From the NCBI GenBank assembly GCA_018222585.1, contig JAAFAB010000007.1, positions 62,001 through 126,000 of the forward strand: a stretch of 64,000 nucleotides of DNA. The letters are read 5' to 3'. This document shows, piece by piece, positions 4,456 to 63,382 of the stretch (position 1 is the stretch's first letter; each line of letters opens with the position of its first letter). The notes beneath the pieces were generated by a model. The model saw only the letters and a program-made list of their open reading frames with translations. It ran no database searches and had not been told where the DNA came from. Both the position numbers and the translations under genes were made by a program. The stretch comes from Paracoccaceae bacterium. GTDB lineage: Bacteria > Pseudomonadota > Alphaproteobacteria > Rhodobacterales > Rhodobacteraceae.

Positions 4456-5786
4456 AGCTCTCGACCCCCGCCCTGACGCCCTCGACGCTCTTTGCCCGCG
4501 AAACGCTCTGGCAAAGCTGGCTGGATGTCGAGGCCGCCCTGGCCGAGACCCAGGCCGAAATGGGGATCATCCCCGCCGAGGCCGCGCCGGGCATCCGCGA
4601 GGCCGCCAGCCTCGCCCGCATCGGCATCGAGGAACTGCAGGCCGATATCCGCATCACCCACGCGCCGATCCTGTCGCTGACCCGCCTGCTCTCTGCAGCG
4701 GCGGGCGAGGCCGGGGCCTATGTCCACTGGGGCGCGACGACCCAGAACGTCATGCAGACCGGGCGCATCCTGCTGATCCGCGAGGCCGACCGGGCGATCC
4801 GCAAGGCCCTGGGCCAGGCGCTGCTCAAGCTGGCCGAGATGGCCGAGACCCATGCCGAGACCCTGATGCCGGGCCGCACCAACCGCCAGCACGCCCTGCC
4901 GATCAGCTACGGCTTCAAGGTGGCGGGCTGGATCGAGGAACTGACCCGCGCACTGGACCGCCTGTCGGACGGCGGGCGCCGCCTCTTCGTGCTGCCCTTC
5001 GGCGGCGCGGTCGGCGCCATGCATGCCTTCGGGCCCGAGGGGGCCGAGCTGAACCGCCGCCTTGCCGCCCGCATGGGGCTGGGCACGCTGCTGGTGCCGG
5101 GCCGGGCGATCAACGACCTCTTTGCCGACTACATCACCCAGCTTTCGCTGCTGGCGATGACGCTGGAGCGGGTCGCGGCAGAGCTCTACCTGCTGATGAC
5201 CCAGGAGATCGGCGAGATCGCCGAGCGGCTGGACGCGGGCACCGTCGGCTCGTCCACCATGCCGCACAAGGTGAACCCCAAGTACGTCGTGCGGGTGCTG
5301 GCCCAGACGGGCGAACTTCGCGGTCTCGCCGGCCCGGCGATGGAAACCGGCCGCTCCAGCCATGAAGGGGACTCGGCGCAGAACCAGATGCTCTCGACGC
5401 TGCTGGATCGCGCCGTGCCTCTGGCATGGGAGATGGCCGAGGGCTTCGACGCCCTGCTGGGCCGGATCGAGGTCAAGGCGGCGAAGATGGCCGAGAATGC
5501 CGCGCTCTCGGGCGGGGCGATCGCCACCGAAGGGCTGATGATGCGCCTCGCGCCTCTGACCGGGCGCTCGGCGGCCCATGACATCATCCACCACGCCCTC
5601 GACCACCGCAGCCCAGGCGACAGCCCGACCGAGGCGCTGGCCGCCTCGCCCGACCTGCAGGCGCATATGTCCCAGGACGAGATCCGCGCCGCCCTGGACC
5701 CGGCCGCCTACTGCGGCGACAGCGCGCGGATTTCCCGCGACGCGGCGGGTCTGGCACGCGACACGGCCCGCGCCATCGCCGGCTAG
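4452..5786 (+). CDS. Lyase of the fumarase/aspartase (adenylosuccinate lyase) superfamily, PcaB-like
   Basis: 444 residues. The superfamily signature GSSTMPHKVNP lies at about residues 266-276, and the second conserved block near residue 85 (HWGATTQNVMQTG) resembles adenylosuccinate lyase and 3-carboxymuconate cycloisomerase (PcaB). Such enzymes eliminate fumarate or open lactone or amine adducts, with the flexible signature loop carrying the catalytic Ser. Its start overlaps the ATPase stop by 4 nt, so it is the last gene of the importer operon. I infer that it acts on the imported solute or its product. No protocatechuate-pathway gene is nearby, so a PcaB role is not supported by context. 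Confidence 0.75.
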   Translation: MKLSTPALTPSTLFARETLWQSWLDVEAALAETQAEMGIIPAEAAPGIREAASLARIGIEELQADIRITHAPILSLTRLLSAAAGEAGAYVHWGATTQNVMQTGRILLIREADRAIRKALGQALLKLAEMAETHAETLMPGRTNRQHALPISYGFKVAGWIEELTRALDRLSDGGRRLFVLPFGGAVGAMHAFGPEGAELNRRLAARMGLGTLLVPGRAINDLFADYITQLSLLAMTLERVAAELYLLMTQEIGEIAERLDAGTVGSSTMPHKVNPKYVVRVLAQTGELRGLAGPAMETGRSSHEGDSAQNQMLSTLLDRAVPLAWEMAEGFDALLGRIEVKAAKMAENAALSGGAIATEGLMMRLAPLTGRSAAHDIIHHALDHRSPGDSPTEALAASPDLQAHMSQDEIRAALDPAAYCGDSARISRDAAGLARDTARAIAG

Positions 5787-9323: not shown

Positions 9324-9972
9324 AGCCCAGCCCCCTCAGCGTGCGGATCACCGCGCCCGAGCCGGCGATCTTCTTGCGCAGCCGCGCCACGTAGAGCTCG
9401 ATCGCGTTCACCCCAACCACCGTGTCGTCGAAGGAATAAAGCCCCTCCAGCAGCCGGTCCTTGGAATGCACCTGGCCGCGTCCGCGCATCAGCATCGACA
9501 GCAGCGCATGTTCGCGCCGGGTCAGGTCCAGCCGCTGTCCGTGCGCCGTCACCACCCCCGCCACCGGGTCATAGGCCAGGCCGCCGAGGCTGATCTCGCC
9601 CGCCCGCTCGCTGGCCTCGCGCCGGGCCAGGACATGCAGCCGCGCCTCCAGCTCGCGCTGGTCGAAGGGTTTCACCAGGTAATCGTCGGCCCCGAAGGAA
9701 AAGGCCGAGAGCTTGTCGTCGACCGAGAAATGCGCCGTCAGCATCAGCACCGGCATCTTCTGCCCGGCGGCCCGCATCTCGCGCAGCAGGTCGACCCCCG
9801 ACCCATCCGGCAGCGTGATGTCCAGCACGACCACGTCGTAGCCCTGCACCCGCAGGCAATCGCGCGCCTCGGCCAGGGTCATCGCATAGTCGCAGGCCAT
9901 GCCGCCGGCGCGCAGGCGGGACAGGGTGGCATCGGCCAGGTCCTGAGTATCCTCCACCAGCAGAATCCGCAT
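9301..9972 (-). CDS. tctD: Response regulator, OmpR family, TctD-like
   Basis: 223 residues: a receiver domain (phospho-acceptor D51 in VVVLDITLPDGSG, conserved K101) followed by an OmpR-type winged-helix DNA-binding domain ending LRKKIAGSGAVIRTLRGLGY. Start ATG 9972 is preceded by GGAGGGGTAA. It is transcribed away from tctC, and the 182-bp divergent region holds direct repeats that suit an OmpR-family dimer. It is expected to activate the tricarboxylate transporter genes when phosphorylated. Confidence 0.9.
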   Translation of the reverse strand: MRILLVEDTQDLADATLSRLRAGGMACDYAMTLAEARDCLRVQGYDVVVLDITLPDGSGVDLLREMRAAGQKMPVLMLTAHFSVDDKLSAFSFGADDYLVKPFDQRELEARLHVLARREASERAGEISLGGLAYDPVAGVVTAHGQRLDLTRREHALLSMLMRGRGQVHSKDRLLEGLYSFDDTVVGVNAIELYVARLRKKIAGSGAVIRTLRGLGYVLDAEG

Positions 9973-10035
9973 TTACCCCTCCTTAGCGGCTGACGCGCCA
10001 CCGTCAGGGCGGGCCCGCGCCTGGTCTTGGCGTGG

Positions 10036-10100
10036 CCCTGTCGTGACCCTGTCGCGACCCGACCCTGTGACAGCTTGGTGACAGGTTCAACCGCTATATC
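10036..10100 (+). promoter_or_regulatory. Candidate TctD-regulated promoter of tctCBA
   Basis: Three copies of a CCCTGT element start at 10036 (CCCTGTCGTGA), 10047 (CCCTGTCGCGA) and 10063 (CCCTGTGACAG). The first two are 11 bp apart, one helical turn, as OmpR-type regulators prefer. A -10-like TATATC lies at 10095-10100 with only a poor -35 (AGCTTG) 17 bp upstream, as expected of an activator-dependent promoter. Inferred, not shown. Confidence 0.45.
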
Positions 10101-50855: not shown

Positions 50856-50939
50856 GGGCGACGAGCTGCAAGGTGCGGCAGCGGACTGTAACTCCGCCGG
50901 GGAGACCCATGCCTGGTTCGATTCCAGGGTCGCCCACCA
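50856..50939 (+). tRNA. tRNA-Tyr (anticodon GUA), class II
   Basis: 84 nt including encoded CCA. Acceptor stem GGGCGAC/GTCGCCC, anticodon stem GCGGA/TCCGC around loop CTGTAAC (anticodon GTA), long variable arm with GGG-GAGA-CCC, T arm CCTGG-TTCGATT-CCAGG, discriminator A. The D arm folds as GCTG/CGGC with GG in the loop, but position 8 is G, 14 is C and 21 is G, where U8, A14 and A21 are usual. Stems and CCA argue for a real tRNA; the atypical core makes the exact identity a little less certain. Confidence 0.78.
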
Positions 50940-50973
50940 AACTCCCCTTTTATCGTTTGGTATCAATGGGCAG

Positions 50974-51037
50974 GTGTCCCGCACCGCCTGTTTTGCGGCC
51001 TAGTGATTTCAGTGGGTTAGCGGTGGAGTGTCCCGCA
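50974..51037 (+). repeat. 10-bp direct repeat just downstream of the tRNA
   Basis: GTGTCCCGCA occurs at 50974-50983 and 51028-51037. It lies at the point where composition becomes AT-richer and where an island would be expected to join the tRNA. The rest of 50940-51247 has no gene I can support and no integrase. Confidence 0.5.
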
Positions 51038-51247
51038 ATAGAGGCGGCTGAGTACTGCCCCGAGGGCAGCACGATAACGGATCAAAAGATGGTCGCCTTT
51101 AGAAGGCCGCTAGCAGTATTCGCATTGCCAGTATGCCTAGCACCTCAGCTAACAGGCCTGGCTTCCCCAGAAGCGATTTCTTACGCTCCTGTATAACGCC
51201 AACTGGTAGAGTGCAGACGCTATGCATGTGTGGGTGAGGAGCAATAC

Positions 51248-52165
51248 GTGAAGAAAAAACTCGGCAGAGCGGTGAAATTCAGGGACCATATCCTCAAGAA
51301 TCTCGACGATGATTTTTGCCCCCTGACATGGAACGGCGATCGCACTTTTTCTGATGACGTCGCCCAACGGATCCTGGATTCATTCCCGTTCTACATCGAG
51401 CCCACCGGGGTGAAGTTCCTGGAGGAGCACGCTCTTCAGCTCAATGAAGAGGAGTTCTACCGCGCGATCGCCGAGATGAGGCTGCCATTTCCAGAAGTTT
51501 GGCTGGAGCTAGATAGTCCCGCACCCAAAGGCTACCCCGACGGCAAGGCTGGCGCGATCATTGACTACACCGACGACGGACTGCGGGTCTTCACCGCGAA
51601 GCTAATCAAGCTGCCTGAAGGCGGGCATTTTACGGTCCTATATGCCGGCTCCGAAGTGCTCTTCAAACGAGATGGTAACGTCCAGCTGACGGATACCCCC
51701 GGTAGTTTCCTGGATGACGCAATCTCCGAGCGACGCAAGGGGCGCATCCGCACGGCTGAAACTGTCAACGCCCCCATCCCAATCGACACGGTACGAGAAC
51801 GCGAACGCGAAGCGCTTCAAGACGCCATTCGATCGGTAGCGAAGCTTCTTTCGATCTCAGCCCTTCACAATCGGCCTGACGTCCTAGCGGCCCCGACCCC
51901 ATCTTTGACATCCAAAGGCGCGGCCAAGAAATTTGTGCAAGGCGGGGCGAAGGTGCCTGCCAGGGAGCTGACCCTTGTGACGCTCGGCAAGGCCGGTCGC
52001 GTCCAGACCACCGCCTCGACCTCGGGCAGTAGACGCCAAGCGCATTGGGTAAGAGGGCACCTGTTTCTTGCCAGGAATGGGAAACTCACCTGGAGGCGGC
52101 CGCATGTCCGTGGAGAAGGGAGCCCACAAAAGACCCCCAGGTCAGTCGGCGCGATGCTGAATTGA
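51248..52165 (+). CDS. Hypothetical protein, possibly phage-derived
   Basis: 305 residues from a GTG at 51248, chosen for GAGGAG 6 nt upstream. The N-terminal two thirds are acidic and globular (LPFPEVWLELD near residue 85). Residues about 190-230 look helical. The C-terminus holds an HWVRGHLFLARNGKLTWRRPHVRGEG block that I associate loosely with phage and island proteins. Codon use is less GC-biased than in core genes. It precedes the methyltransferase operon by 110 nt on the same strand, so a role in that module is possible but unproven. Confidence 0.65.
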   Translation: MKKKLGRAVKFRDHILKNLDDDFCPLTWNGDRTFSDDVAQRILDSFPFYIEPTGVKFLEEHALQLNEEEFYRAIAEMRLPFPEVWLELDSPAPKGYPDGKAGAIIDYTDDGLRVFTAKLIKLPEGGHFTVLYAGSEVLFKRDGNVQLTDTPGSFLDDAISERRKGRIRTAETVNAPIPIDTVREREREALQDAIRSVAKLLSISALHNRPDVLAAPTPSLTSKGAAKKFVQGGAKVPARELTLVTLGKAGRVQTTASTSGSRRQAHWVRGHLFLARNGKLTWRRPHVRGEGSPQKTPRSVGAMLN

Positions 52166-52275
52166 GAACATAGGATCGCCGGGTCGGGCCGCAATCTGCT
52201 TTCAGACCCAACCATTTGCGGTAGTGCTATCGGGGTTCCTCGATTACTCATTGGTTAATGACGTCGAGGCCTTTG

Positions 52276-54972
52276 ATGAATCCTACCGAAATTTATGATG
52301 CTCTGGCGGAACTTGCTCGCGAGCCTTTTGACGCGACCGAGTTCCCCTTCGCTTTTGCCACAGCGACTGACGGCGCCAAGGCGGCGATCTCCAAGCTGCG
52401 CAGCGGGTCAACCAATAAGTCCGACTTGCCCGGCGGCGTGCTGTTCGGCAAGAAGTTCCACTTCGCCCCCGCGCTGGCGGGCATGACCGATGTCACTCTG
52501 GACCAGCTGCGCAGCTCGAAGAAGACCAAGACCTCGAAGCCCGCGATCCTGATCGCCACCGATGGCGAGATGATCTCGGCAGAGCACCCGGTCTCGGGCG
52601 ACACGCTCCACTGCCGTTTCGACGAGCTTGGCGACAATTTCGGCTTCTTTCTGCCCGCTGCGGGCAAGGAGCGTTACCGCGCGGTCGAAGAAAACCCCGT
52701 CGACGTCAAGGCGACCGGCAAGCTGGCCCGCCTCTATGACGCGCTGACCAAGGCGAATCCCGACTGGGGCAGCGACGAGCGTCGGCATGAGATGAACCAG
52801 CTGATGATGCGGCTGATCTTCTGCATGTTCGCCGAGGATGTCGGCATCTTCCCCGACAACCAGTTCTCGCGCCTGCTGTTCACCCATGCAGGCGACAAGG
52901 GCGAGGAAGCGCGCGAAACCATCGTCGCCGCCTTCCAGGCGATGAACCTGCTCAAGGCCAAGCGCGAGGGCCTGCCCGCCTGGACGGGCGAGCTGGAATA
53001 CGTCAATGGCGGGCTTTTTGCGGGCACCATCGATGCGCCGCGCTTTGATGCCGTGGCCTTCCGCTATCTGCGCGAGGCCTGCGACCTGAACTGGCGCGAG
53101 ATCAACCCCGACATTTTCGGCTCGATGATCCAGTCGGTCGCGGACCCCAAGCAGCGTTCGGAACTGGGGATGCACTACACCTCGGTGCCGAACATCATGA
53201 AGGTGATCGGGCCGCTGTTCCTCGATGACCTCGATGCCGAGATCCACAAGGCATGGGACCGTGGCCGCGGGCTGCAACAGGTGCTGGACCGGATGTCGCG
53301 CATCCGCGTGTTCGACCCGGCCTGCGGATCGGGCAACTTCCTTGTCGTGTCCTATCGCGAGCTGCGGGCGCGCGAGACGCGCATCCTGCGGCGGCTGGAA
53401 GAGCTGAACGGCCCCGGATCGCTGGCCATGTTCTCGGCCATCCCGATCAGCCATTTCTACGGGATCGAGATCGCGGATTTCGCCGCCGAGACCGCCAAGC
53501 TGGCGCTGTTCATCGCCGAGTATCAGGCGAATGCCAGCTTTGCCGAGGTCTTTGGACGCCGCCCCGCCGCGCTGCCCCTGAAGGATGCGGCGCATATCCG
53601 CACCGGGAACTCCCTGCGCATCGACTGGGAGGAGGTCTGTCCGCCCCCCGGTGAAGGCGAGGAAGTGTTCATCGCAGGCAATCCCCCCTTCGTCTGGTCG
53701 AATGACATGTCTAAGGCGCAGAAGCTGGAGATGGGGGACGTCTTTTCAGTTCACACAAAGCGCTACAAGGCATTGGACTATGTATCGGCATGGTACTTGA
53801 AATCAGCCGAGTACATCCGGAGTTTTGGCGGAAAAGCAGCACTGGTCGCTACCAATGCCATTTGCCAGGGCCAATCAGTCCCGATGCTTTGGCCTTACCT
53901 TTTGCAGCAAGGCGTTGAAATATTCTTTGCTCACCGCCCCTTCAAATGGAGCAATAATGCAGGCAACACTGCAACAGTAGATGTTGTTATTGTTGGCCTC
54001 CAGTGCGGGCACATCAAAGAGAAATTTCTTTTCGACGGAGACACCAAGTCGACGGTTGAAAACATAAGCCCATACATCACTCCGACGCCTGACGTGATTA
54101 TTGAATCAGCCAACCGGGGAAGCATCTTCAATCTCCCAGCAATGCCACGGGGCTGCATGCCAATAGACGGCGGACACTTGATCCTTTCACCAACTGAAAA
54201 AGATGAGCTGATCCGAGCGCGCCCAGAAAGCTCTGTATTCATTAAGAAGTTTCTGGGCGCTGACGAGCTCGTTAAAGGTGTGGAACGGTGGTGCCTACAC
54301 ATCAATGACCAAGATTTGGGTGCGGCCATGTCTATCCCGGAGGTTCGCGAGCGGATTCAGCGTGTTCGAGAAACGCGAGAAAACAGCCCCGACCCTGGGG
54401 CACAGAGCGCGGCATCGAGATCACATCAGTTCCGTGAACACATGATCGCAGTTAAAGACGCGATAGTCGTACCGGCGGTATCTTCGGAGCGCCGTCCGTT
54501 CTTGACTCCGGTTATCGTGGGCGCTGACACTGTATCATCGAACCGGAATTATGTGCTGTACGATCAACCGATCTGGGCGTTTTCGATTCTGAGCACGTCT
54601 CTACATAGATGTTGGATCTTGACGGTTTGCGGCAAACTGCAAGCACGCCCGAATTACTCTAACACCCTCGGATGGAACACTTTCCCGGTGCCGAAGTTTA
54701 CCGAGGCCCAGCTAGCCGACCTCTCGGCCTCGGCCCGCAGCATCCTGAAATGCCGCTACAGCCACTACCCAAAGACCATTGCCCAGCTCTACGATCCCGA
54801 CAAAATGCCCGACGACCTTCGCGCCGTGCATCGGGAAAACGACGAGCTGCTGGAAAGCATGTATATCGGCCGCCCCTTCCGCAATGACACCGAACGGCTG
54901 GAGAAGCTCTTCAAGCTCTATGCCGCCAAGGTGAAATCGCTGGAGGCCGCGCCAAAGAAAAAGAGGGCCTGA
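52276..54972 (+). CDS. Class I SAM-dependent DNA adenine methyltransferase, MmeI-like architecture
   Basis: 898 residues from the ATG at 52276 (GAGG 6 nt upstream; a weaker ATG lies at 52258). Motif I FDPACGSGNF is at residues 346-355 and motif IV NPPF at 469-472, the order of gamma-class N6-adenine methyltransferases. The N-terminal third matches the MmeI-type N and helical domains but shows no D..ExK nuclease motif, so it probably does not cut. The C-terminal part (about 490-800) should be the target-recognition domain and is visibly AT-richer than the rest. First gene of the methyltransferase-helicase-nuclease operon. Confidence 0.88.
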   Translation: MNPTEIYDALAELAREPFDATEFPFAFATATDGAKAAISKLRSGSTNKSDLPGGVLFGKKFHFAPALAGMTDVTLDQLRSSKKTKTSKPAILIATDGEMISAEHPVSGDTLHCRFDELGDNFGFFLPAAGKERYRAVEENPVDVKATGKLARLYDALTKANPDWGSDERRHEMNQLMMRLIFCMFAEDVGIFPDNQFSRLLFTHAGDKGEEARETIVAAFQAMNLLKAKREGLPAWTGELEYVNGGLFAGTIDAPRFDAVAFRYLREACDLNWREINPDIFGSMIQSVADPKQRSELGMHYTSVPNIMKVIGPLFLDDLDAEIHKAWDRGRGLQQVLDRMSRIRVFDPACGSGNFLVVSYRELRARETRILRRLEELNGPGSLAMFSAIPISHFYGIEIADFAAETAKLALFIAEYQANASFAEVFGRRPAALPLKDAAHIRTGNSLRIDWEEVCPPPGEGEEVFIAGNPPFVWSNDMSKAQKLEMGDVFSVHTKRYKALDYVSAWYLKSAEYIRSFGGKAALVATNAICQGQSVPMLWPYLLQQGVEIFFAHRPFKWSNNAGNTATVDVVIVGLQCGHIKEKFLFDGDTKSTVENISPYITPTPDVIIESANRGSIFNLPAMPRGCMPIDGGHLILSPTEKDELIRARPESSVFIKKFLGADELVKGVERWCLHINDQDLGAAMSIPEVRERIQRVRETRENSPDPGAQSAASRSHQFREHMIAVKDAIVVPAVSSERRPFLTPVIVGADTVSSNRNYVLYDQPIWAFSILSTSLHRCWILTVCGKLQARPNYSNTLGWNTFPVPKFTEAQLADLSASARSILKCRYSHYPKTIAQLYDPDKMPDDLRAVHRENDELLESMYIGRPFRNDTERLEKLFKLYAAKVKSLEAAPKKKRA

Positions 54973-54975
54973 CAG

Positions 54976-57051
54976 ATGGTTCAGATGGTCAATGTCACCT
55001 ACGGCACCTCCAAGGCGACGACGAACGCCCTTGGTCAGCGCCCGATGCAGGCCCGCACCTATGACGCCCGCGCTGCACAGTTCCTGCTGCTGAAGGCGCC
55101 GCCCGCGGCGGGCAAGAGCCGCGCGCTGATGTTCGTGGCGCTCGACAAGCTGCGGCATCAGGGACTTGAGAAGGTGATCGTCTGTGTGCCCGAGACCTCG
55201 ATCGGCGGGTCCTTCCGTTCGACCGATCTAACGAGCTACGGTTTCGAGGCAGATTGGGAGGTCGATGACCGCTGGAACCTCTGCCTGACCGGCGACGATG
55301 CCGACAAGCAGAAGGTGAAGGCTTTCCAGGCGTTCATGGACAGCGATGCGAAGGTTCTGGTCTGCACCCATGCCACCTTCCGCTTCAGCTTTGACGAGGT
55401 GATCAAGACCAAGGGGATCGAGGCGTTTGACAGCTGCTTCATCGCCATCGACGAGTTTCACCATGTCTCGGCCTCGGACAACAACAGGCTGGGGGTGATC
55501 CTTCGCAGCCTGATCAATCGAGCGCAGTGCCACGTGATGGCGATGACCGGCAGCTATTTCCGTGGCGATGCCGATCCGGTGCTGCGCCCCGAGGACGAGG
55601 ACCGCTTCACCAAGATCACCTACAGCTATTACGAGCAGCTGGAGGGCTATGCCTGGCTCAAGGCGCTCGGGATCAATTACGAGTTCTACAAGGGCAATTA
55701 CGTCAATGGGCTGCCGGGCGTGCTGAACCCCGATCAAAAGACGATCATCCACATTCCGCATCGAGGGTCGGCCGAGGCATTCGATGACAAGTTCAACGAG
55801 GTGGGCAAGATCATCGATCTGCTGGGCACCCATGAGGGACGCGATCCCGAGACGGGATTCGATCTGGTGAGAAAGCCGGATGGCGGGCTGCTGAAGGTCG
55901 CGGACCTGGTAGATGACGGGCCGGGGCGCGATATCGTCAAGGCTGCGCTATCGCGCGAGATCAAGGGGTCAGACGGTAAGCGCGATGATGTGGCGGACCG
56001 ATCCAAGGTCGACATCATCATCGCGCTCGGGATGGCCAAGGAAGGGTTCGACTGGGTCTGGTGTGAACATGCGCTGACCATCGGCTATCGGTCGTCCCTG
56101 ACCGAGATCGTGCAGATCATCGGGCGCGCGACCCGCGATGCACCAGGAAAACCCCGCGCGTTGTTCACCAACCTTGTTGCCGAACCCGGCGTGGAAACCG
56201 GCGTTGTGACCGATGCCGTGAACGACATGCTCAAGGCGATCTCCGGATCGCTGCTGATGGAGCAGGTGCTGGCCCCGAACTTCAAGTTCTACCGTCGAGA
56301 AGACGGCGATGTGCGGGCACCGATGGGCACCGATGACGAGGGCAATATAACCATCGGCATCAAGGGGCTGGTCGAGCCGCCCACGGACCGCTCGCGCGAG
56401 ATTTGCGAGAAGGACATGAACGATCTGATGGCAACAGCCTATCAGGAGATGGACCGGCGCGTGCTGTCGCCAGACACGGCGCCTGAGGTCGCTACGCAGA
56501 TGGTCCTGACCGATATCATCGAGAGGCGCTATGAAACGCTGGATGCCCAGGAAGCGGAATCCGTCCGTCAGCATCTGGCGGCGCATATGAACGTCCTGAC
56601 GCTGGCGCGGAAGGAAGCAGAACGTGGCTTCGCCGAGGGTCAATCGCCCCTAAGCGGCACACCTCCGAGGTCGAGCAGCGACGACGATGACAGCGAACCC
56701 GCCAGCGCACCAAACACCCTGCTGGAGATGGTCCGGAAGTTCATCAACGTCCGGGACATCGACATCGAGCTGATCGACAGCGTGAACACCTTCCAAGAGC
56801 GCTTCGAGGTCGCGTCGAAATCTCTGAACTCCGAGCTGCTGTCGCATGTCCAGTCGGCAATGGTCGCCTTGCGCGTGAACATGACCGGCGACGAGGCCAG
56901 AACGCTTTGGCCTCGCATCAAGGCGTTTCGTGCCACCGAGGGGCGCGAACCAAATGTGCATTCCGCCAACCCGCTTGAGAAGCGCATGGCAGAAGCACTT
57001 GCCTGGCTTAAGGCCGAAAAAGCCAAGCGCTTGCGTGAGGGAGCTCTGTAA
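54976..57051 (+). CDS. DEAD/DEAH-type SF2 helicase of a restriction/defence module
   Basis: 691 residues. SF2 motifs: Walker A APPAAGKS at 41-48, motif II DEFH at 159-162, motif III-like AMTGSYF, motif VI QIIGRATR at 380-387. After the two RecA folds come about 250 residues of mostly helical, acidic sequence. It starts 3 nt after the methyltransferase stop and its TAA overlaps the next ATG, so stoichiometric expression is likely. I infer a translocase or unwinding subunit acting with the methyltransferase and the GIY-YIG protein. Confidence 0.87.
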   Translation: MVQMVNVTYGTSKATTNALGQRPMQARTYDARAAQFLLLKAPPAAGKSRALMFVALDKLRHQGLEKVIVCVPETSIGGSFRSTDLTSYGFEADWEVDDRWNLCLTGDDADKQKVKAFQAFMDSDAKVLVCTHATFRFSFDEVIKTKGIEAFDSCFIAIDEFHHVSASDNNRLGVILRSLINRAQCHVMAMTGSYFRGDADPVLRPEDEDRFTKITYSYYEQLEGYAWLKALGINYEFYKGNYVNGLPGVLNPDQKTIIHIPHRGSAEAFDDKFNEVGKIIDLLGTHEGRDPETGFDLVRKPDGGLLKVADLVDDGPGRDIVKAALSREIKGSDGKRDDVADRSKVDIIIALGMAKEGFDWVWCEHALTIGYRSSLTEIVQIIGRATRDAPGKPRALFTNLVAEPGVETGVVTDAVNDMLKAISGSLLMEQVLAPNFKFYRREDGDVRAPMGTDDEGNITIGIKGLVEPPTDRSREICEKDMNDLMATAYQEMDRRVLSPDTAPEVATQMVLTDIIERRYETLDAQEAESVRQHLAAHMNVLTLARKEAERGFAEGQSPLSGTPPRSSSDDDDSEPASAPNTLLEMVRKFINVRDIDIELIDSVNTFQERFEVASKSLNSELLSHVQSAMVALRVNMTGDEARTLWPRIKAFRATEGREPNVHSANPLEKRMAEALAWLKAEKAKRLREGAL

Positions 57052-58250
57052 TGTCGCGACCGAGCTTGGAAGATATCTTCGCAGAGAACGACGAGTTCGG
57101 ACTGCTGGATGTCAAACCGCGGGCGTCTAGCGGTAGCTCCACGCAGGACCGTGGAGTTGCCGCCCTGCTCGAAGTGACAGCATTCTACGAGAACCATTCG
57201 CGCCTCCCTAATCCAGAGGCAATGGATCATGACGAGATGCGCCTCGGAGCGATCTGGGAGACCGTGAAATTGTCTCCTACTGACCCGATGCGGGCTGTGG
57301 ACCGTCTGGGATTGTTGAGCGAAGAAGCCGCGCCCACGCGGCGCTCGTGGCGGGATGCTCCTGTCGAAGCTGATATTCCTACCAGCCTAGATGACATCTT
57401 CGACGATCTCGATGTCGATGCATCATTGGTCAAACTCAAGCATACCACGCGATCTGCGGAGCGGCATGTCCCGGATCATCGCGCTGACTTCGTGCCTTGT
57501 CAGGACTTCGAGCAGTTCCGAGACCGTTTTGAGGCCGTTCAGCGTGGCTTGGAAACTGGCGAGCGCCAGGCAAATCCGGTACGGAAATGGTCTGTGATCG
57601 AGCCGATCGAAGGGGACTTTTTCATCCGGAACGGCTTGCTCGCCATGGTAGCCGAAAAGTCAGAGATGACAGCCCGCGGGGGCGCACGAGACTACCGGCT
57701 CCGTGTCATCTTCTCCAATGGCACGGAAAGTGACCCGCTCATGTCCTCTTTCCGCAAGTCCCTGAATGAAGACAAGACCGCAAGAATGGTGCAAAAAGTG
57801 GGTCTTGGTCCGCTGGACCCGGAGTGGGAAAGCGATCAATTGGAGCTCTCTGGAACCATCTACGTCGCTCGCTCGCGCTCGGAAGATACTTCGATCAGAG
57901 AGCAGCGTATGATCTTGCACAAGATTGGGGTGACCAGCCAAGACGTCTCTCGTCGGATTGCAGATGCGAAGAACGACCCGACATTTCTGCTCGCGCCTGT
58001 CGAAATCGTAGCAACCTACCAGTTGCGTAACCTATCACGCAGTAAGGTCGAGCAATTGCTGCATCGCTTCTTCGCAGCAGCAAGGGCCGACCTCTTTGTA
58101 TTGGATCGGTTCGGCAAGAAGGTTTTCCCGAAGGAATGGTTCTATGTGCTGCCCGATCAGGTCGGCAAAGCGGCCAAGCTACTGGAGGAAGGTCAGTTGC
58201 ACCTGTATCGCTATGACACAAACACACAACGAATCCTTAGAAAGGACTGA
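57051..58250 (+). CDS. GIY-YIG (T5orf172-type) nuclease
   Basis: 399 residues. An N-terminal region of about 250 residues without a clear domain (begins SRPSLEDIFAENDEFGLLD; a related SLDDIFDDLD recurs near residue 110). Then a GIY-YIG fold: GTIYV at 268-272, KIGVT from 291, catalytic-type Arg in SRRI near 300, and E334 in KVEQLLHRFF. Start overlaps the helicase stop (TAATG). The likely DNA-cutting subunit of the module. Last gene of the operon; 182 bp of AT-rich non-coding sequence follows. Confidence 0.85.
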   Translation: MSRPSLEDIFAENDEFGLLDVKPRASSGSSTQDRGVAALLEVTAFYENHSRLPNPEAMDHDEMRLGAIWETVKLSPTDPMRAVDRLGLLSEEAAPTRRSWRDAPVEADIPTSLDDIFDDLDVDASLVKLKHTTRSAERHVPDHRADFVPCQDFEQFRDRFEAVQRGLETGERQANPVRKWSVIEPIEGDFFIRNGLLAMVAEKSEMTARGGARDYRLRVIFSNGTESDPLMSSFRKSLNEDKTARMVQKVGLGPLDPEWESDQLELSGTIYVARSRSEDTSIREQRMILHKIGVTSQDVSRRIADAKNDPTFLLAPVEIVATYQLRNLSRSKVEQLLHRFFAAARADLFVLDRFGKKVFPKEWFYVLPDQVGKAAKLLEEGQLHLYRYDTNTQRILRKD

Positions 58251-58432
58251 AAGCCAAGCCCGATCAGGACGCGACTGTTACTCGCCGTCCCCTTTCTTTA
58301 GCAAGGTCACCCTGACCATAAGCATAGAGACGTCAGCAGCTTAATGACCGTGATGCTCAATGGCCGGCCATTCTAGGCTTGCCCCCATTTCCCGCCCAAA
58401 GACTTTGCCGAGGTATCTGAGGAATCCTCCAC

Positions 58433-59650
58433 ATGCGCGCGCTGCACACCGCTGACTGGCACATCGGCCAGACCCTGAACGGCTGGAGCCGCGAGGCGGA
58501 ACATGCCCGTTTCTTCGCAGCGCTGACCGATCTGATGGTCGAGGAACAGATCGACCTGCTGCTGGTGGCCGGCGACATCTTCGACACCACCAACCCCTCG
58601 GGCGAGAGCCAGCGGCTGTTCTACCGCACCATGGCCGCGATGAAGAGCCGCCTGCCCGATCTGCGCGTCATCCTCACGGGGGGCAATCACGATCCGGCCC
58701 TGCGGCTGGAGGCGCCGGGCGACGTGCTGGACAGCCTCGACATCCACACCATCGGTACCGTGCACCGCACGGGCGGGGCTGTCGACCTCGACCGCCACCT
58801 GATCCCCGTACCCGGCCCCGACGGCGCGCCCGCGCTCTATGTGCTCGCCATCCCCTTCCTGCGCGCCGCCGACCTCTCCGGCCTCAGCTTCGCCAGTGAC
58901 CAGGGCGAGGACACTGTGATCGAGGCCGCCCGCCGCTTCCACGCCGAACTGACCGAGGCCGCCCTGTCCCGGATCGGCGATCTCCCCTTGCTCGCCATGG
59001 GGCACCTGCATTGCACCGGCGGGCTGGAGGCCGAAGGCGCCGAGCGGCGGATCCTCATCGGTGGCTCTCATGCGGTCCCGCCCGATATCTATCCACCCCG
59101 CATTGACTATGTCGCGCTTGGCCACCTGCACGGGCCGCAATCGCTGGACGGCGGGCGGGTGCGCTATTCCGGGTCCTGCTTCCCGCTTTCAGCCTCCGAG
59201 ATCCGCTACACCCACGGGGTCACGATCCTCGACATTGACGGCTGCGACATCAGCGCCGCCCACCACGCCATCCCCCTGCCCGCCCCGGTACTGCGCTTGC
59301 CCGCCTCGGGCACCCTGACCCTGGACGAGCTGGAGACAGCCCTGGCCGAGATCGCACCGATCGAAGACGTGAACCTGCGCCCGCTGGTCTATGTCGAGCT
59401 GCTGGCGGAGGAGGCGCCCTCAGTGATGATGGGCCGAGCCGAGGCGCTCTTGCGCGAGGCCCCGGTGCGCCCCGCCGGCATCCGCATCCACCGGGCCGCG
59501 GAGGACAGCGCCGAGCCCCCTGCCCCCGCGCCGTCGCTGGGCGAGACCAGCCCCGAGGAGCTCTTCGCCCGGGCCTTCGAGGCGAGGAACGGCTTCGCCC
59601 CCGAGGACCGCCACCTCGCGGCCTTCCGCGATGTCCTGGCGGAGGTCTGA
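58433..59650 (+). CDS. sbcD: Exonuclease SbcCD nuclease subunit SbcD
   Basis: 405 residues, Mre11-like metallophosphoesterase. Metal ligands visible: D8 and H10 (TADWHIG), D48 (GDIFD), N85 and H86 (GGNHDP), then GHLHC and GHLHG. Nuclease partner of SbcC; opens hairpins and trims protein-blocked DNA ends. Composition returns to core-genome GC here, so the accessory block ends before it. Stop to sbcC start is 3 nt. Confidence 0.95.
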   Translation: MRALHTADWHIGQTLNGWSREAEHARFFAALTDLMVEEQIDLLLVAGDIFDTTNPSGESQRLFYRTMAAMKSRLPDLRVILTGGNHDPALRLEAPGDVLDSLDIHTIGTVHRTGGAVDLDRHLIPVPGPDGAPALYVLAIPFLRAADLSGLSFASDQGEDTVIEAARRFHAELTEAALSRIGDLPLLAMGHLHCTGGLEAEGAERRILIGGSHAVPPDIYPPRIDYVALGHLHGPQSLDGGRVRYSGSCFPLSASEIRYTHGVTILDIDGCDISAAHHAIPLPAPVLRLPASGTLTLDELETALAEIAPIEDVNLRPLVYVELLAEEAPSVMMGRAEALLREAPVRPAGIRIHRAAEDSAEPPAPAPSLGETSPEELFARAFEARNGFAPEDRHLAAFRDVLAEV

Positions 59651-59653
59651 GCC

Positions 59654-62600
59654 ATGCAGATCCTGTCGATCCGGGGCGAGAACATCGCCAGCCTCGCCAA
59701 ACCCTTCGAGATCCGCCTGGACGACGGACCGCTGGCCAGTGCCGGTCTCTTCGCCATCACCGGCGAGACGGGCGCGGGCAAGTCCAGCCTGCTGGATGCC
59801 ATGTGCCTGGCGCTCTACGGCGATTGCCCGCGCCTGTCGGGCAGCGGCACGCGCGAGGCGGTGGAGGATGTCGACGGCTCCGCCCTGCGCGCCACCGACG
59901 CGCGCATGGTGCTGCGCCGGGGCGCAGCGCGGGGCCTGGCCGAGGTCACCTTCCGCGCCACGGACGGCGAGGTCTACACCGCCGGCTGGTCCGCCCGCCG
60001 GGCCCGGGACCGCATCGACGGGCGCCTGCAGGCGGTCGAGCGCAGCCTGCTGCGCGTCTCGGATGGCCAGGTCCTGGAAAGCCAGCTTTCACGCGTGAAC
60101 GACCGGGTGACCGAGCTGACCGGCCTGACCTATGACGAGTTCCGCCGCACCGTGCTGCTGGCCCAGGGCGACTTCGACGCCTTCCTGTCGGCACAGACCG
60201 GCGAGCGGGCGGCGATCCTGGAGAAGGTCACCGGCACGCAGATCTACCGCGACATCTCGCGCCGCATCTACGAGCGCAACACAGGCGCCCAGTCCGCGCT
60301 GCAGACCCTCGAGACCCGGCGCGGCGAGCACCAACTGCTGAGCCCAGAAGACCGCGCCGCGCTGGAGAGTGAGGCCGAGACCCTGCGCGCCCGCAAGACG
60401 GCGACGGAGGCAGAACTGGCCCAGGTGACAACGGACCTCGGGCGCTACGCCGCACAGGAGGGAGCCCAGACTGCTCTCGCTCGCGCCGAGGCCCGTGTGA
60501 GCACAGCGGAGGCGGCCCTTGCCGATCTCGCGGACCAGAGGGCCTGGCTGGCCGACTGGGACCGCGCCCAGGCCCTGCGCGGCGAGCTGCGCGAGGATCA
60601 GGCCGCCCAAGCGGCGTTGCGCGAGGCGACCGAGGCCGAGGCACAGCTGACCGCAGCGGAGCGGGAGCAAGGCGAGACCGTTAAGGCGCTGGCGGAGGCC
60701 GCCACCGCGGCACAAGAGCAGCTCGAACAAGTCGAGGATGCGTTCAAGGCCCTTGGTCCGGAGTGGTCCAAGGCGGAGCAGCTCGACAGCCGCATCACCA
60801 CCGCCACGGAGGAGCTGGCCCGCGCCGAGGAGGAACTGACCCGGCGCCAGGTGGAAGCCGGAACTTCCGAGGAGCAACAGACGGCGCTGGCGGCAGAGGA
60901 CCAGCGTCTGGCCGACGCGCGGGCCGAAGCGCGGGCCGCGCTGGCGCAGATCCCCGGCCACGAGGTTCTGCGCAACGATTGGAGCGCGCTGGAGGAACGG
61001 CTCGAGGCCCGCATCGCCGCAGCGACCCGTCTGCGCCAGGCGAACCAGGAACGCGCAACGCTGCTGGAGGCCACCGCGGCACAGACCCAGGCCCGGGATG
61101 AAGCCAACGCCGAGGCCGCCGCGCTGACCGCCCGTCTGGCGGACCTGCGTCAGCAGCAGGCAGACCTGCAACCGGAACGCCAGCGCCTGCAGGCCGCCGC
61201 CCCCTCGGCGGCTCTGGCGACCCTGGGCCAGCAGCTCATCGACCTGCGCGCCCTGCGCCAGGCCGCCGCCCAGGTCCGTGAGGCCGACCGCGCGATCGCC
61301 GAGAGCGCGGCCCGGCAACGCGCTACCCTAGAGACCCGTGATCAGGCCGAAGCGGATCGCCAGCGCCTGGCGGAGGAGCTGAAGACGGCGGGCCACCATG
61401 TCGATGCGCTCTCCCGCCCCGTCGCCTCGGCCGAGGCCGCAGTCAGCGCCGAGGCGGATCACCTGCGCCAACACCTGGAGCCGGGCCGCCCCTGCCCGGT
61501 CTGCCATGCGACCGAGCACCCGGTGCAGGACGACAGCGCCTTGTCACGCCTCGCGGCCGACCTGCGCCAGCAGATGCAGGCGGCAACCGAGGCCCGTGAC
61601 GCCGCGCAGACAGCGCTGCGTGACGCAATCACACGACACGATGAGGCAGTGGCCGCGATCGCCCGCGAGGAGAACGAGGCCCCGGCCCTCGCCGCACGTC
61701 TCGCTGAGCGGCTGGAAGACCACGCCCGCCAATGCGCCGCGCTGGAGGTCAGCGCCCTGCCGGATCTCCCGACAGACCCCCGCGCCGCCGACACAGCCTT
61801 CACTGTTCTTCTGGAGGGACTGGGGGCCCGCCGCCCGGCCCTCGAGGAGGACCGAGACCGGCTGGCGGCTCTGGAGCGCAACCATCAGCGCCTCGGACAG
61901 GGGATCGAAACGGCACAGGACCAGCTGACCGCCCGGACCGACAAGGCGGCAGCGCTGACCGCCGCCCTGGCTGACAGCGAGGCGCGCGCGAAGGACCTGG
62001 CCCGTGACTGCGACACCGCAGAGCGCGAAATCGCGACCCTGGCGCCCCGGCTGGCCGATCCCCTCGCCGCCCTTGGCCTATCGCCCGAGGCCTTCGATGC
62101 CGACGGCCAGCCCGCCCTCGACGCCTTGCGCGAGACCGCCCGCCGCGCTGCGGCCCTGCTGAAGACGATCGAGGAGACCGAAACCGCCCGCACCACGCTG
62201 CTCCTCCAGCTGACCGAAGCGCGCAGCGCCGCCCGCGCGGCCACGAACCGGGTGACCGAGGCGACCGAGACCCGGGACAGCCGCAAGGCAAGTCTGGACA
62301 GCCTGCGCACCGAGCGAGCGGCACTGCTAGGGGGCGAGGCCACCGGTGCGCACCGCACCCGCCACAACGAGGCGCGCAAGGCCGCGCAGGCGGCGGCCAG
62401 CGAGGCGCAGCGACAGCATGCAGAGGTTCGTGCCCGACAGGCGCAGATCGCCGGCAGCCTGGAGACCGCACGGACCGCTCTCACCCGCGCGGCGGCCCGC
62501 CGGGACAGCGCCGCCGAGGCCCTGGCCCAGGCCTGCGCCGCCACCGGGCTGGACCTCGACCGGGTTCAGGCATTGCATGCCACAGAGGCCGATGTGGTAG

Positions 62601-63382
62601 AAAGCCGCCGAGCCGCGCTGCAGGCCGCCGAGACGGAACGCACCAGCGCCCTGGGCGCCCGCGACGAACGCCGGCAGGAGTGGGACGCACTGCAGGCCGA
62701 GGGGCTGCCCGAGACGCCGCGCGAGGATCTGCGGACCCACAAGGACGAGCTGGCCGCGACGGCTACCACGCTGTCCGAAGACCTCGGCGCGCTGACGGAA
62801 CGGCGCATGGCCGACGCCCGTGCGCGTGAGGCGCTGAAGGGTTTGGAGGCAGAGATCGAGGCGGCGCGCAAGGTGGCCGACACCTGGGCGGCGATCAACG
62901 ACGCCATCGGCTCCGCCCGTGGCGACCGCTTCGCCCAGATCGCCCAGGCCGTCACCCTGGCGATGCTGGTGGAACGCGCGAACCTGCACCTCGACCAGCT
63001 GAAGCCGCGCTACCAGCTGGCGGTGGCCGACCAGGACCTGGCGCTGCATGTGACCGACCGCGATATGGCGGGCGACACGCGACCCAGCCGGTTGCTCTCG
63101 GGCGGGGAGCGCTTCCTGGTCTCGCTGTCGCTCGCACTGGCGCTCTCGGGCATGGGCAGCCGGGGCGCACTGGCGGGGACGCTCTTCATCGACGAAGGCT
63201 TCGGCAGCCTGGACGCGGAATCCCTCGACCTGGCCATCGACGCGTTGGAGAGGCTGCAGGCCCAGGGCCGCACCATCGGCGTTATCAGCCACGTCCAGGC
63301 GATGAAGGACCGCATCCCGGTGCAGCTGGAGGTGACCAAGACCGGCGGCGGCGCCAGCGAGATCGCCCTCAGGGTCGTCTGA
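59654..63382 (+). CDS. sbcC: Exonuclease SbcCD ATPase subunit SbcC
   Basis: 1242 residues, Rad50-like SMC ATPase. Walker A GETGAGKS at 37-44; two long Ala/Glu-rich coiled-coil arms; zinc-hook CPVC at 614-617 in the middle; ABC signature LSGGERF from 1148; Walker B LFIDEGFGSLD from about 1177. Usual SbcC length is about 1050-1250. Forms the ATP-dependent double-strand nuclease with SbcD. A terminator follows 43 nt downstream. Confidence 0.95.
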   Translation: MQILSIRGENIASLAKPFEIRLDDGPLASAGLFAITGETGAGKSSLLDAMCLALYGDCPRLSGSGTREAVEDVDGSALRATDARMVLRRGAARGLAEVTFRATDGEVYTAGWSARRARDRIDGRLQAVERSLLRVSDGQVLESQLSRVNDRVTELTGLTYDEFRRTVLLAQGDFDAFLSAQTGERAAILEKVTGTQIYRDISRRIYERNTGAQSALQTLETRRGEHQLLSPEDRAALESEAETLRARKTATEAELAQVTTDLGRYAAQEGAQTALARAEARVSTAEAALADLADQRAWLADWDRAQALRGELREDQAAQAALREATEAEAQLTAAEREQGETVKALAEAATAAQEQLEQVEDAFKALGPEWSKAEQLDSRITTATEELARAEEELTRRQVEAGTSEEQQTALAAEDQRLADARAEARAALAQIPGHEVLRNDWSALEERLEARIAAATRLRQANQERATLLEATAAQTQARDEANAEAAALTARLADLRQQQADLQPERQRLQAAAPSAALATLGQQLIDLRALRQAAAQVREADRAIAESAARQRATLETRDQAEADRQRLAEELKTAGHHVDALSRPVASAEAAVSAEADHLRQHLEPGRPCPVCHATEHPVQDDSALSRLAADLRQQMQAATEARDAAQTALRDAITRHDEAVAAIAREENEAPALAARLAERLEDHARQCAALEVSALPDLPTDPRAADTAFTVLLEGLGARRPALEEDRDRLAALERNHQRLGQGIETAQDQLTARTDKAAALTAALADSEARAKDLARDCDTAEREIATLAPRLADPLAALGLSPEAFDADGQPALDALRETARRAAALLKTIEETETARTTLLLQLTEARSAARAATNRVTEATETRDSRKASLDSLRTERAALLGGEATGAHRTRHNEARKAAQAAASEAQRQHAEVRARQAQIAGSLETARTALTRAAARRDSAAEALAQACAATGLDLDRVQALHATEADVVESRRAALQAAETERTSALGARDERRQEWDALQAEGLPETPREDLRTHKDELAATATTLSEDLGALTERRMADARAREALKGLEAEIEAARKVADTWAAINDAIGSARGDRFAQIAQAVTLAMLVERANLHLDQLKPRYQLAVADQDLALHVTDRDMAGDTRPSRLLSGGERFLVSLSLALALSGMGSRGALAGTLFIDEGFGSLDAESLDLAIDALERLQAQGRTIGVISHVQAMKDRIPVQLEVTKTGGGASEIALRVV

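Follow-up and report, generated by a model that had tools for sequence, protein, structure and literature searches.

A three-gene operon encoding an MmeI-like adenine DNA methyltransferase, a superfamily 2 (SF2) helicase and a GIY-YIG nuclease protein lies in a 64,000-nucleotide stretch of Paracoccaceae bacterium DNA (assembly GCA_018222585.1, contig JAAFAB010000007.1, positions 62,001 to 126,000), which we refer to in its entirety as the window. The trio is an intact member of the known but under-studied DnmA(YeeA)-YeeB-YeeC kind and not a new system, and it is probably an ATP-dependent restriction-modification system that marks a single strand and cleaves through its GIY-YIG protein. A first-pass annotation of the same DNA had proposed a candidate defence system and could not place it among the types that it named; the novelty implied there falls away, since the trio matches the published DnmA/YeeA-YeeB-YeeC architecture, and a match of the full trio to a system already named, which that annotation had itself set against its proposal, was found in substance.

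dnmA, yeeB and yeeC form a conserved cluster with the same architecture in various species (PMC9973331; what we take from this paper, from PMC7261158 and from PMC4833311 is confined to the parts of their texts that were available), and nuclease-less MmeI homologues next to yeeB and yeeC were described by Morgan et al. (2009), who also proposed a type I-like system (both as credited in PMC7261158). The window shares with that cluster its gene order, a methyltransferase of MmeI type without a nuclease motif, an SF2 helicase as the next gene and a T5orf172/GIY-YIG gene as the second, and differs from it in host lineage and recognition cassette. A trio from Bacillus mediterraneensis (L141) is among the relatives collected, and PF20473 was matched in seven of 14 control genomes, that of Bacillus subtilis among them. 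Published verdicts on this kind of cluster conflict, B. subtilis pointing to a relic and Vibrio crassostreae showing a phage phenotype (PMC9973331), and the interest of the present analysis lies in family-level signs of activity, in cassette exchange and in a slot for additional genes.

Operon structure, domains and active sites

The operon is real and, as read from its letters, intact. All three open reading frames (ORFs; Table 1) were found where the first-pass annotation had placed them, overlapping or abutting: the methyltransferase and helicase genes are joined by TGA-CAG-ATG, with a 3-nt gap, and the helicase stop and the start of the GIY-YIG gene share TAATG, with a 1-nt overlap (letters inspected in both cases). 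The methyltransferase start proposed in that annotation, at M7, is probably right, and is favoured over the first ATG because most alignment rows begin no more than two residues from it.

Table 1. Positions in the window of the operon, its principal motifs and the neighbouring tRNA gene
Feature	Position	Strand	Basis
tRNA-Tyr gene	50856-50939
MmeI-type adenine DNA methyltransferase, DnmA/YeeA-like, without nuclease motif	52258..54972	+	ORF, 904 aa; likely start 52276
Methyltransferase motif I, DPACGSGNF, residues 353-361	53314..53340	+	alignment
Methyltransferase motif IV, NPPF, residues 475-478	53680..53691	+	alignment
Probably exchanged recognition cassette, methyltransferase residues 479-800	53692..54657	+	identity drop; GC and GC3
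SF2 helicase/ATPase, YeeB-like	54976..57051	+	ORF, 691 aa; Pfam DEAD, 4e-7
Helicase motif I, PPAAGKS region, residues 41-53	55096..55134	+	alignment
Helicase motif II, DEFH, residues 159-162	55450..55461	+	invariant, 124/124
GIY-YIG nuclease protein, YeeC-like, T5orf172/MUG113	57051..58250	+	ORF, 399 aa; Pfam
Tentative SH3/Tudor-like barrel, gene 3 residues about 184-247	57600..57791	+	AlphaFold2 model; low-Z matches only
Catalytic glutamate codon (Glu334), GIY-YIG domain	58050..58052	+	Glu in 117/117

Gene 1 matches five MmeI families in Pfam (MmeI_Mtase 1.2e-97, MmeI_TRD 4.3e-69, MmeI_N 1.2e-22, MmeI_hel 3.7e-20 and MmeI_C 8.2e-15) and the MmeI structure 5hr4 (E 6.3e-144), and it has motifs I and IV as originally described. 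The further claim that it lacks an ExK nuclease motif also stands: a pattern search of the window methyltransferase did not find D-X9-ExK, whereas D-X9-EQKS occurs in all four MmeI-type methyltransferases that have no partner genes (L056, L060, L062 and L064), starting at residues 65-83. A looser pattern had no match in ten of 13 trio-type methyltransferases and matched L052, L053 and L059 at other residues. A stricter one matched three of 108 trio methyltransferases (L085, L088 and L099) at unrelated residues; some of these 108 are cut at the N terminus, and 97 of 107 relatives have an N-terminal domain that can be aligned. These counts indicate that the methyltransferases without the nuclease motif are those with helicase and GIY-YIG partners.

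The single strong PADLOC match of gene 1 is to a type IIG enzyme-methyltransferase (REase_MTase_IIG, 871 bits); its matches to DISARM DrmMI models are weaker (131 bits, best 8e-39) and those to PglX models weak, while genes 2 and 3 have weak matches only. The PADLOC check suggested in the first-pass annotation detected gene 1 strongly, but as a type IIG enzyme and in a way that hid the nature of the trio. NCBIfam has no model at or above its cut-off for any of the three proteins.

The helicase was described as having full SF2 motifs, and it does. Its Pfam match to DEAD is above the cut-off and those to ResIII (21.4 bits against a cut-off of 22.5) and Helicase_C are slightly below theirs. P42-A44, G46-S48 (GKS), D159-H163 (DEFHH) and M190-D198 (MTGSYFRGD) are invariant in all 124 sequences aligned, motifs V and VI are nearly so, and the window protein has every one of them. 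Pfam found no nuclease family in gene 2, the C-terminal part of whose model is of low confidence. The nuclease domain was correctly assigned to the third protein, which matches MUG113 (1.6e-11) and T5orf172 (1.6e-9); G268, Y271, K291, G293, R302 and E334 are present in all 117 sequences (of 119 GIY-YIG proteins aligned) that have letters at these columns, and the window protein again has them all.

Two minor features of the GIY-YIG protein may be mentioned. The predicted structure tentatively suggests a barrel of SH3/Tudor type, and an acidic LEDIF/LDDIF motif occurs twice (residues 6 and 113; 57066-57107 and 57387-57428). Two or more copies are found in 18 of 57 sequences, and the motif is possibly a docking motif in the subgroup to which the window protein belongs.

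Linkage, cassette exchange and a gene slot

Linkage of the three genes is far above chance and near-obligate. A profile scan of genome contigs confirmed at least 558 relatives of the helicase, and of the best 80, which were analysed, 77 carry the methyltransferase upstream in the same orientation and 79 have the GIY-YIG gene downstream. The co-occurrence at many loci for which the first-pass annotation had proposed a test is thus observed. All four misses have less than 2 kb of contig on the relevant side (1,312 to 1,992 bases upstream in three, 46 bases left in the other). Among 43 helicase loci from IMG/VR the methyltransferase is present in 34, the nine misses all having no more than 950 bases upstream, and the GIY-YIG gene in 40; one of the three loci without it has 2 bases left (L157), and the other two (L191 and L199) have more than 5 kb and are only partial helicase matches. 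A first set of 20 loci, collected around methyltransferase matches in relatives of the window's genome, comprises 12 with the full trio, one with methyltransferase and helicase and no GIY match to the window's protein (L069), three with the methyltransferase only, which run to contig ends (L052, L057 and L063), and four of the stand-alone MmeI type.

The helicase relatives listed include Alphaproteobacteria, Gammaproteobacteria, Cyanobacteria, Verrucomicrobia, Bacteroidetes and Bacillales, with trio loci in Bacillus, Fictibacillus, Paenibacillus and Tumebacillus. When the window's phylum was evenly sampled, the helicase (E<=1e-60) was found in 23 of 398 genomes with the window's own counted (22 of the 397 others). 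It is also matched by 263 of 72,556 plasmid records, 153 of them over at least 80% of its length; in each of the four plasmid regions that were opened the trio is present under the annotations DNA methyltransferase, helicase and GIY-YIG nuclease family protein, and in one of them a 43-codon ORF separates the first gene from the second.

Two genomes may hold altered copies. In G020, which is 66% complete, the methyltransferase is spread over two ORFs (558 and 638 aa) that a small ORF separates (L054:8720-13003); identity to the window protein is 72% for the N-terminal half and 37% for the C-terminal half, and this is perhaps a split gene or a spare recognition part. G021 (L073) has what appear to be the remains of two parts of the system, an MmeI N-terminal domain (59% identical) and a GIY-YIG gene, separated by about 4 kb (5045-5617 and 9365-10042), possibly a decayed copy of the trio.

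Specificity appears to evolve through the swap of a cassette that follows directly on motif IV. Computed in blocks of 40 residues, identity between the window methyltransferase and that of a congeneric locus, L050, is 80-100% in residues 1-480 and 82-100% in residues 801-904, but only 37-50% in residues 481-800. The copy on a Gluconobacter plasmid (L076) is 57-92% identical to the window protein in residues 1-480 and 50-80% in the segment, and being farther away in the former yet closer in the latter it reverses the order of relatedness inside the segment. The cassette, which begins directly after NPPF, has a G+C content (GC) of 0.517 and a G+C content at third codon positions (GC3) of 0.57, compared with 0.637 and 0.84 in residues 1-478, and coincides with a dip in sliding-window GC. 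An imported cassette probably accounts for the reversal and for these values better than fast point change does. Of the 532 pairs in the family whose helicases are at least 80% identical, which are not mutually independent, 424 have methyltransferases at least 75% identical in residues 1-478 and at most 55% identical in the cassette.

Recognition by MmeI follows a code read from the residue pairs 806/808 and 774/810 (PMC4833311), and residues of the present family mostly fit that code as published: of 108 rows, 81 have KD or ER at 806/808 and 73 have LR, KS or AR at 774/810. L050 has K/D and L/R at these positions (alignment, by eye); its code residues differ from those of the window, for which reason different target sites are expected for the two cassettes. 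The combination of K/D and L/R would predict G-A-G at positions 4-6, in agreement with the GACGAG of DnmA, although this is only an analogy.

The junction between methyltransferase and helicase is often occupied. The gap exceeds 300 bases in 42 of the 111 loci that have both genes (32 of 77 from genomes and 10 of 34 from viral sequences), and that between helicase and GIY-YIG gene exceeds 100 bases in one of 119; in the window, with its 3-nt gap, the slot is empty. The gaps contain 57 ORFs, and among the Pfam matches listed for the 38 on the + strand that were scanned (25 of 30 families) are RhuM and Abi_2 (five each), DUF1016_N (two), single matches to YhcG_C, AbiEii, DUF6088, GmrSD_N, KilA-N, FRG, Schlafen AlbA_2 and PDDEXK_4, and MarR-type and other regulators; the PADLOC matches listed (25 of 132) include the candidate families PDC-S05 and PDC-S23, with five members each. 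Ten slot ORFs in the first-set relatives comprise an Abi_2, two PDDEXK_4, a DarT-like and a GmrSD_N protein and five without a Pfam match. By these matches, slot genes are often abortive-infection- or toxin-like. The slot is not described in the available parts of PMC9973331, where the only family noted around dnmA is an uncharacterised one, and no literature search was aimed at it; if it is general, it would be a practical place to seek new abortive-infection genes. Enlarged slots occur in L051, L061, L065 and L068 among the first-set relatives and elsewhere in L078, L081, L091, L110, L113, L116-L120, L122, L125, L127, L138, L140, L155, L156 and others, and the slot of L068 stacks DarT-like, GmrSD and PDDEXK_4 proteins.

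Proposed mechanism and alternatives

Homology to MmeI and the conserved motifs suggest that the target of the MmeI-like protein is a short asymmetric site, in which it methylates adenine on one strand; itself without a nuclease motif, it would provide target recognition for the entire system. When it meets foreign DNA that is unmethylated, it would recruit or license the SF2 motor; the motor would spend ATP on translocation or signalling along DNA, and the GIY-YIG subunit would then cut. Type III enzymes mark one strand yet spare newly replicated self DNA through communication between sites. Marking on one strand leaves self DNA unmarked after replication, and similar communication would explain self-protection here, sparing newly replicated, locally unmarked DNA if the motor demands an arrangement of sites that is never unmarked in self DNA, a notion borrowed from type III biology. 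If this reading is true, a testable question follows: how a host whose DNA is marked on one strand only is protected by a motor driven by ATP. Domain content, near-obligate linkage and conserved active sites support both the division of labour originally proposed, among a methyltransferase with recognition function, an ATPase motor and a GIY-YIG nuclease, and the reading of the operon as a defence system; linkage and active sites, together with frequent cassette change, also argue for a restriction system that works in the family as a whole. A fuller proposal, in which the family would be a distinct and active ATP-dependent class combining one-strand marking, GIY-YIG cutting, re-targeting by exchange of the cassette from NPP(F/Y) onward and a junction slot that takes in abortive-infection and toxin-like genes as a suicidal back-up, is possible, though as a whole we would somewhat doubt it.

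The trio resembles several characterized systems without coinciding with any of them. MmeI (type IIL, PDB 5hr4) has the same methyltransferase, target-recognition and C-terminal domains and a code common to most of the family, but has its own PD-ExK nuclease (PMC7261158) and no helicase partner. Type I and type III systems would, by inference, share a modification and recognition subunit and an SF2 motor, and differ in that the window has no HsdS-type subunit, a methyltransferase of MmeI type and a separate GIY-YIG nuclease. The Res subunit of type III enzymes combines a helicase with a C-terminal PD-(D/E)XK nuclease. The CglI system of Corynebacterium glutamicum (R.CglI and H.CglI), as far as its available description goes, also has separate nuclease and helicase-like ATPase proteins and its cleavage is dependent on nucleoside triphosphates.

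Several points weigh against an active restriction system in the window. Methylation and cleavage by this trio are predictions from sequence, the single-strand and inter-site steps being borrowed from other systems. The likeness to the DnmA-YeeB-YeeC cluster of B. subtilis 168 is one of architecture. The predicted helicase structure is of poor quality (mean pLDDT 67), with SF2 helicases of many kinds as its best PDB matches, and the window's code residues, Q/R at 806/808 (two of 108 rows) and R/N at 774/810 (four of 108), correspond to no published MmeI pair. In B. subtilis, single deletions left sensitivity to three phages unchanged, phage genomes show no avoidance of the DnmA motif (observed/expected 0.97) and the cluster was concluded to be a non-functional relic (PMC9973331), nor does it restrict transformation (PMC7261158). 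These B. subtilis results, and the proposal made there for DnmA, favour a trio in which the methyltransferase alone is active, as an orphan regulatory N6-methyladenine enzyme, the helicase and nuclease no longer restricting. For the window we consider this unlikely: its three genes are open and keep active-site residues that are nearly invariant across the family, the cassette changes quickly, which would not suit a fixed regulatory motif, and deletion of the dnmA and yeeB homologues of V. crassostreae raised sensitivity to some phages (study cited in PMC9973331). The B. subtilis YeeB and YeeC are without short C-terminal stretches that are present in those of V. crassostreae (PMC9973331).

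A restriction system must also be weighed against a methylation-guided block of phage DNA replication or transport that does not cut at sites, with the GIY-YIG protein processing or nicking DNA. BREX is thought to block phage DNA without cutting at sites, and GIY-YIG enzymes can nick DNA. The matches of gene 1 to DrmMI, and more weakly to PglX, are in keeping with such a block, and no cleavage is shown for the family in the available parts of PMC9973331 and PMC7261158. We nevertheless regard it as very unlikely, as no BREX or DISARM core protein was found among the six proteins scanned (the trio, one upstream ORF, sbcD and sbcC) and the conserved GIY-YIG catalytic residues argue for phosphodiester cleavage. 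The core genes of BREX and DISARM are such as PglZ/BrxC or DrmABC. That gene 1 is a stand-alone type IIG or IIL enzyme with two unrelated neighbours, as its PADLOC label would have it, is scarcely credible, being contradicted by the near-obligate linkage and by the absence of the MmeI-type nuclease motif from gene 1.

Genomic setting

The operon sits in a variable region that starts at the 3' end of the tRNA-Tyr gene. DNA to the left of this gene is matched in all 22 genomes of the genus, the window's own included, and detailed comparison with five relatives showed similarity ending at the 3' end of the gene or no more than about 100 bases from it, so that this site (50856-51040) is likely to be an integration hotspot. 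No attachment repeat was found. GC is 0.68 to the left of the operon, 0.72 to the right and 0.52 to 0.64 in its parts. The one sizeable ORF between tRNA gene and operon (51230-52165, 311 aa) has no Pfam match, and no homologue was found in the relatives' loci collected when these were searched; its single PHROG match, a weak one to phrog_10678 (E 5e-4), covers its last part.

On the other side, sbcCD (58401-63382) adjoins the operon. At the DNA level sbcCD is patchy in the genus, and diverged copies may exist elsewhere: a long sbcD match occurs in four of the 22 genomes, counting the window's own, and G017 and G021 have it on a different contig from the tRNA-Tyr locus.

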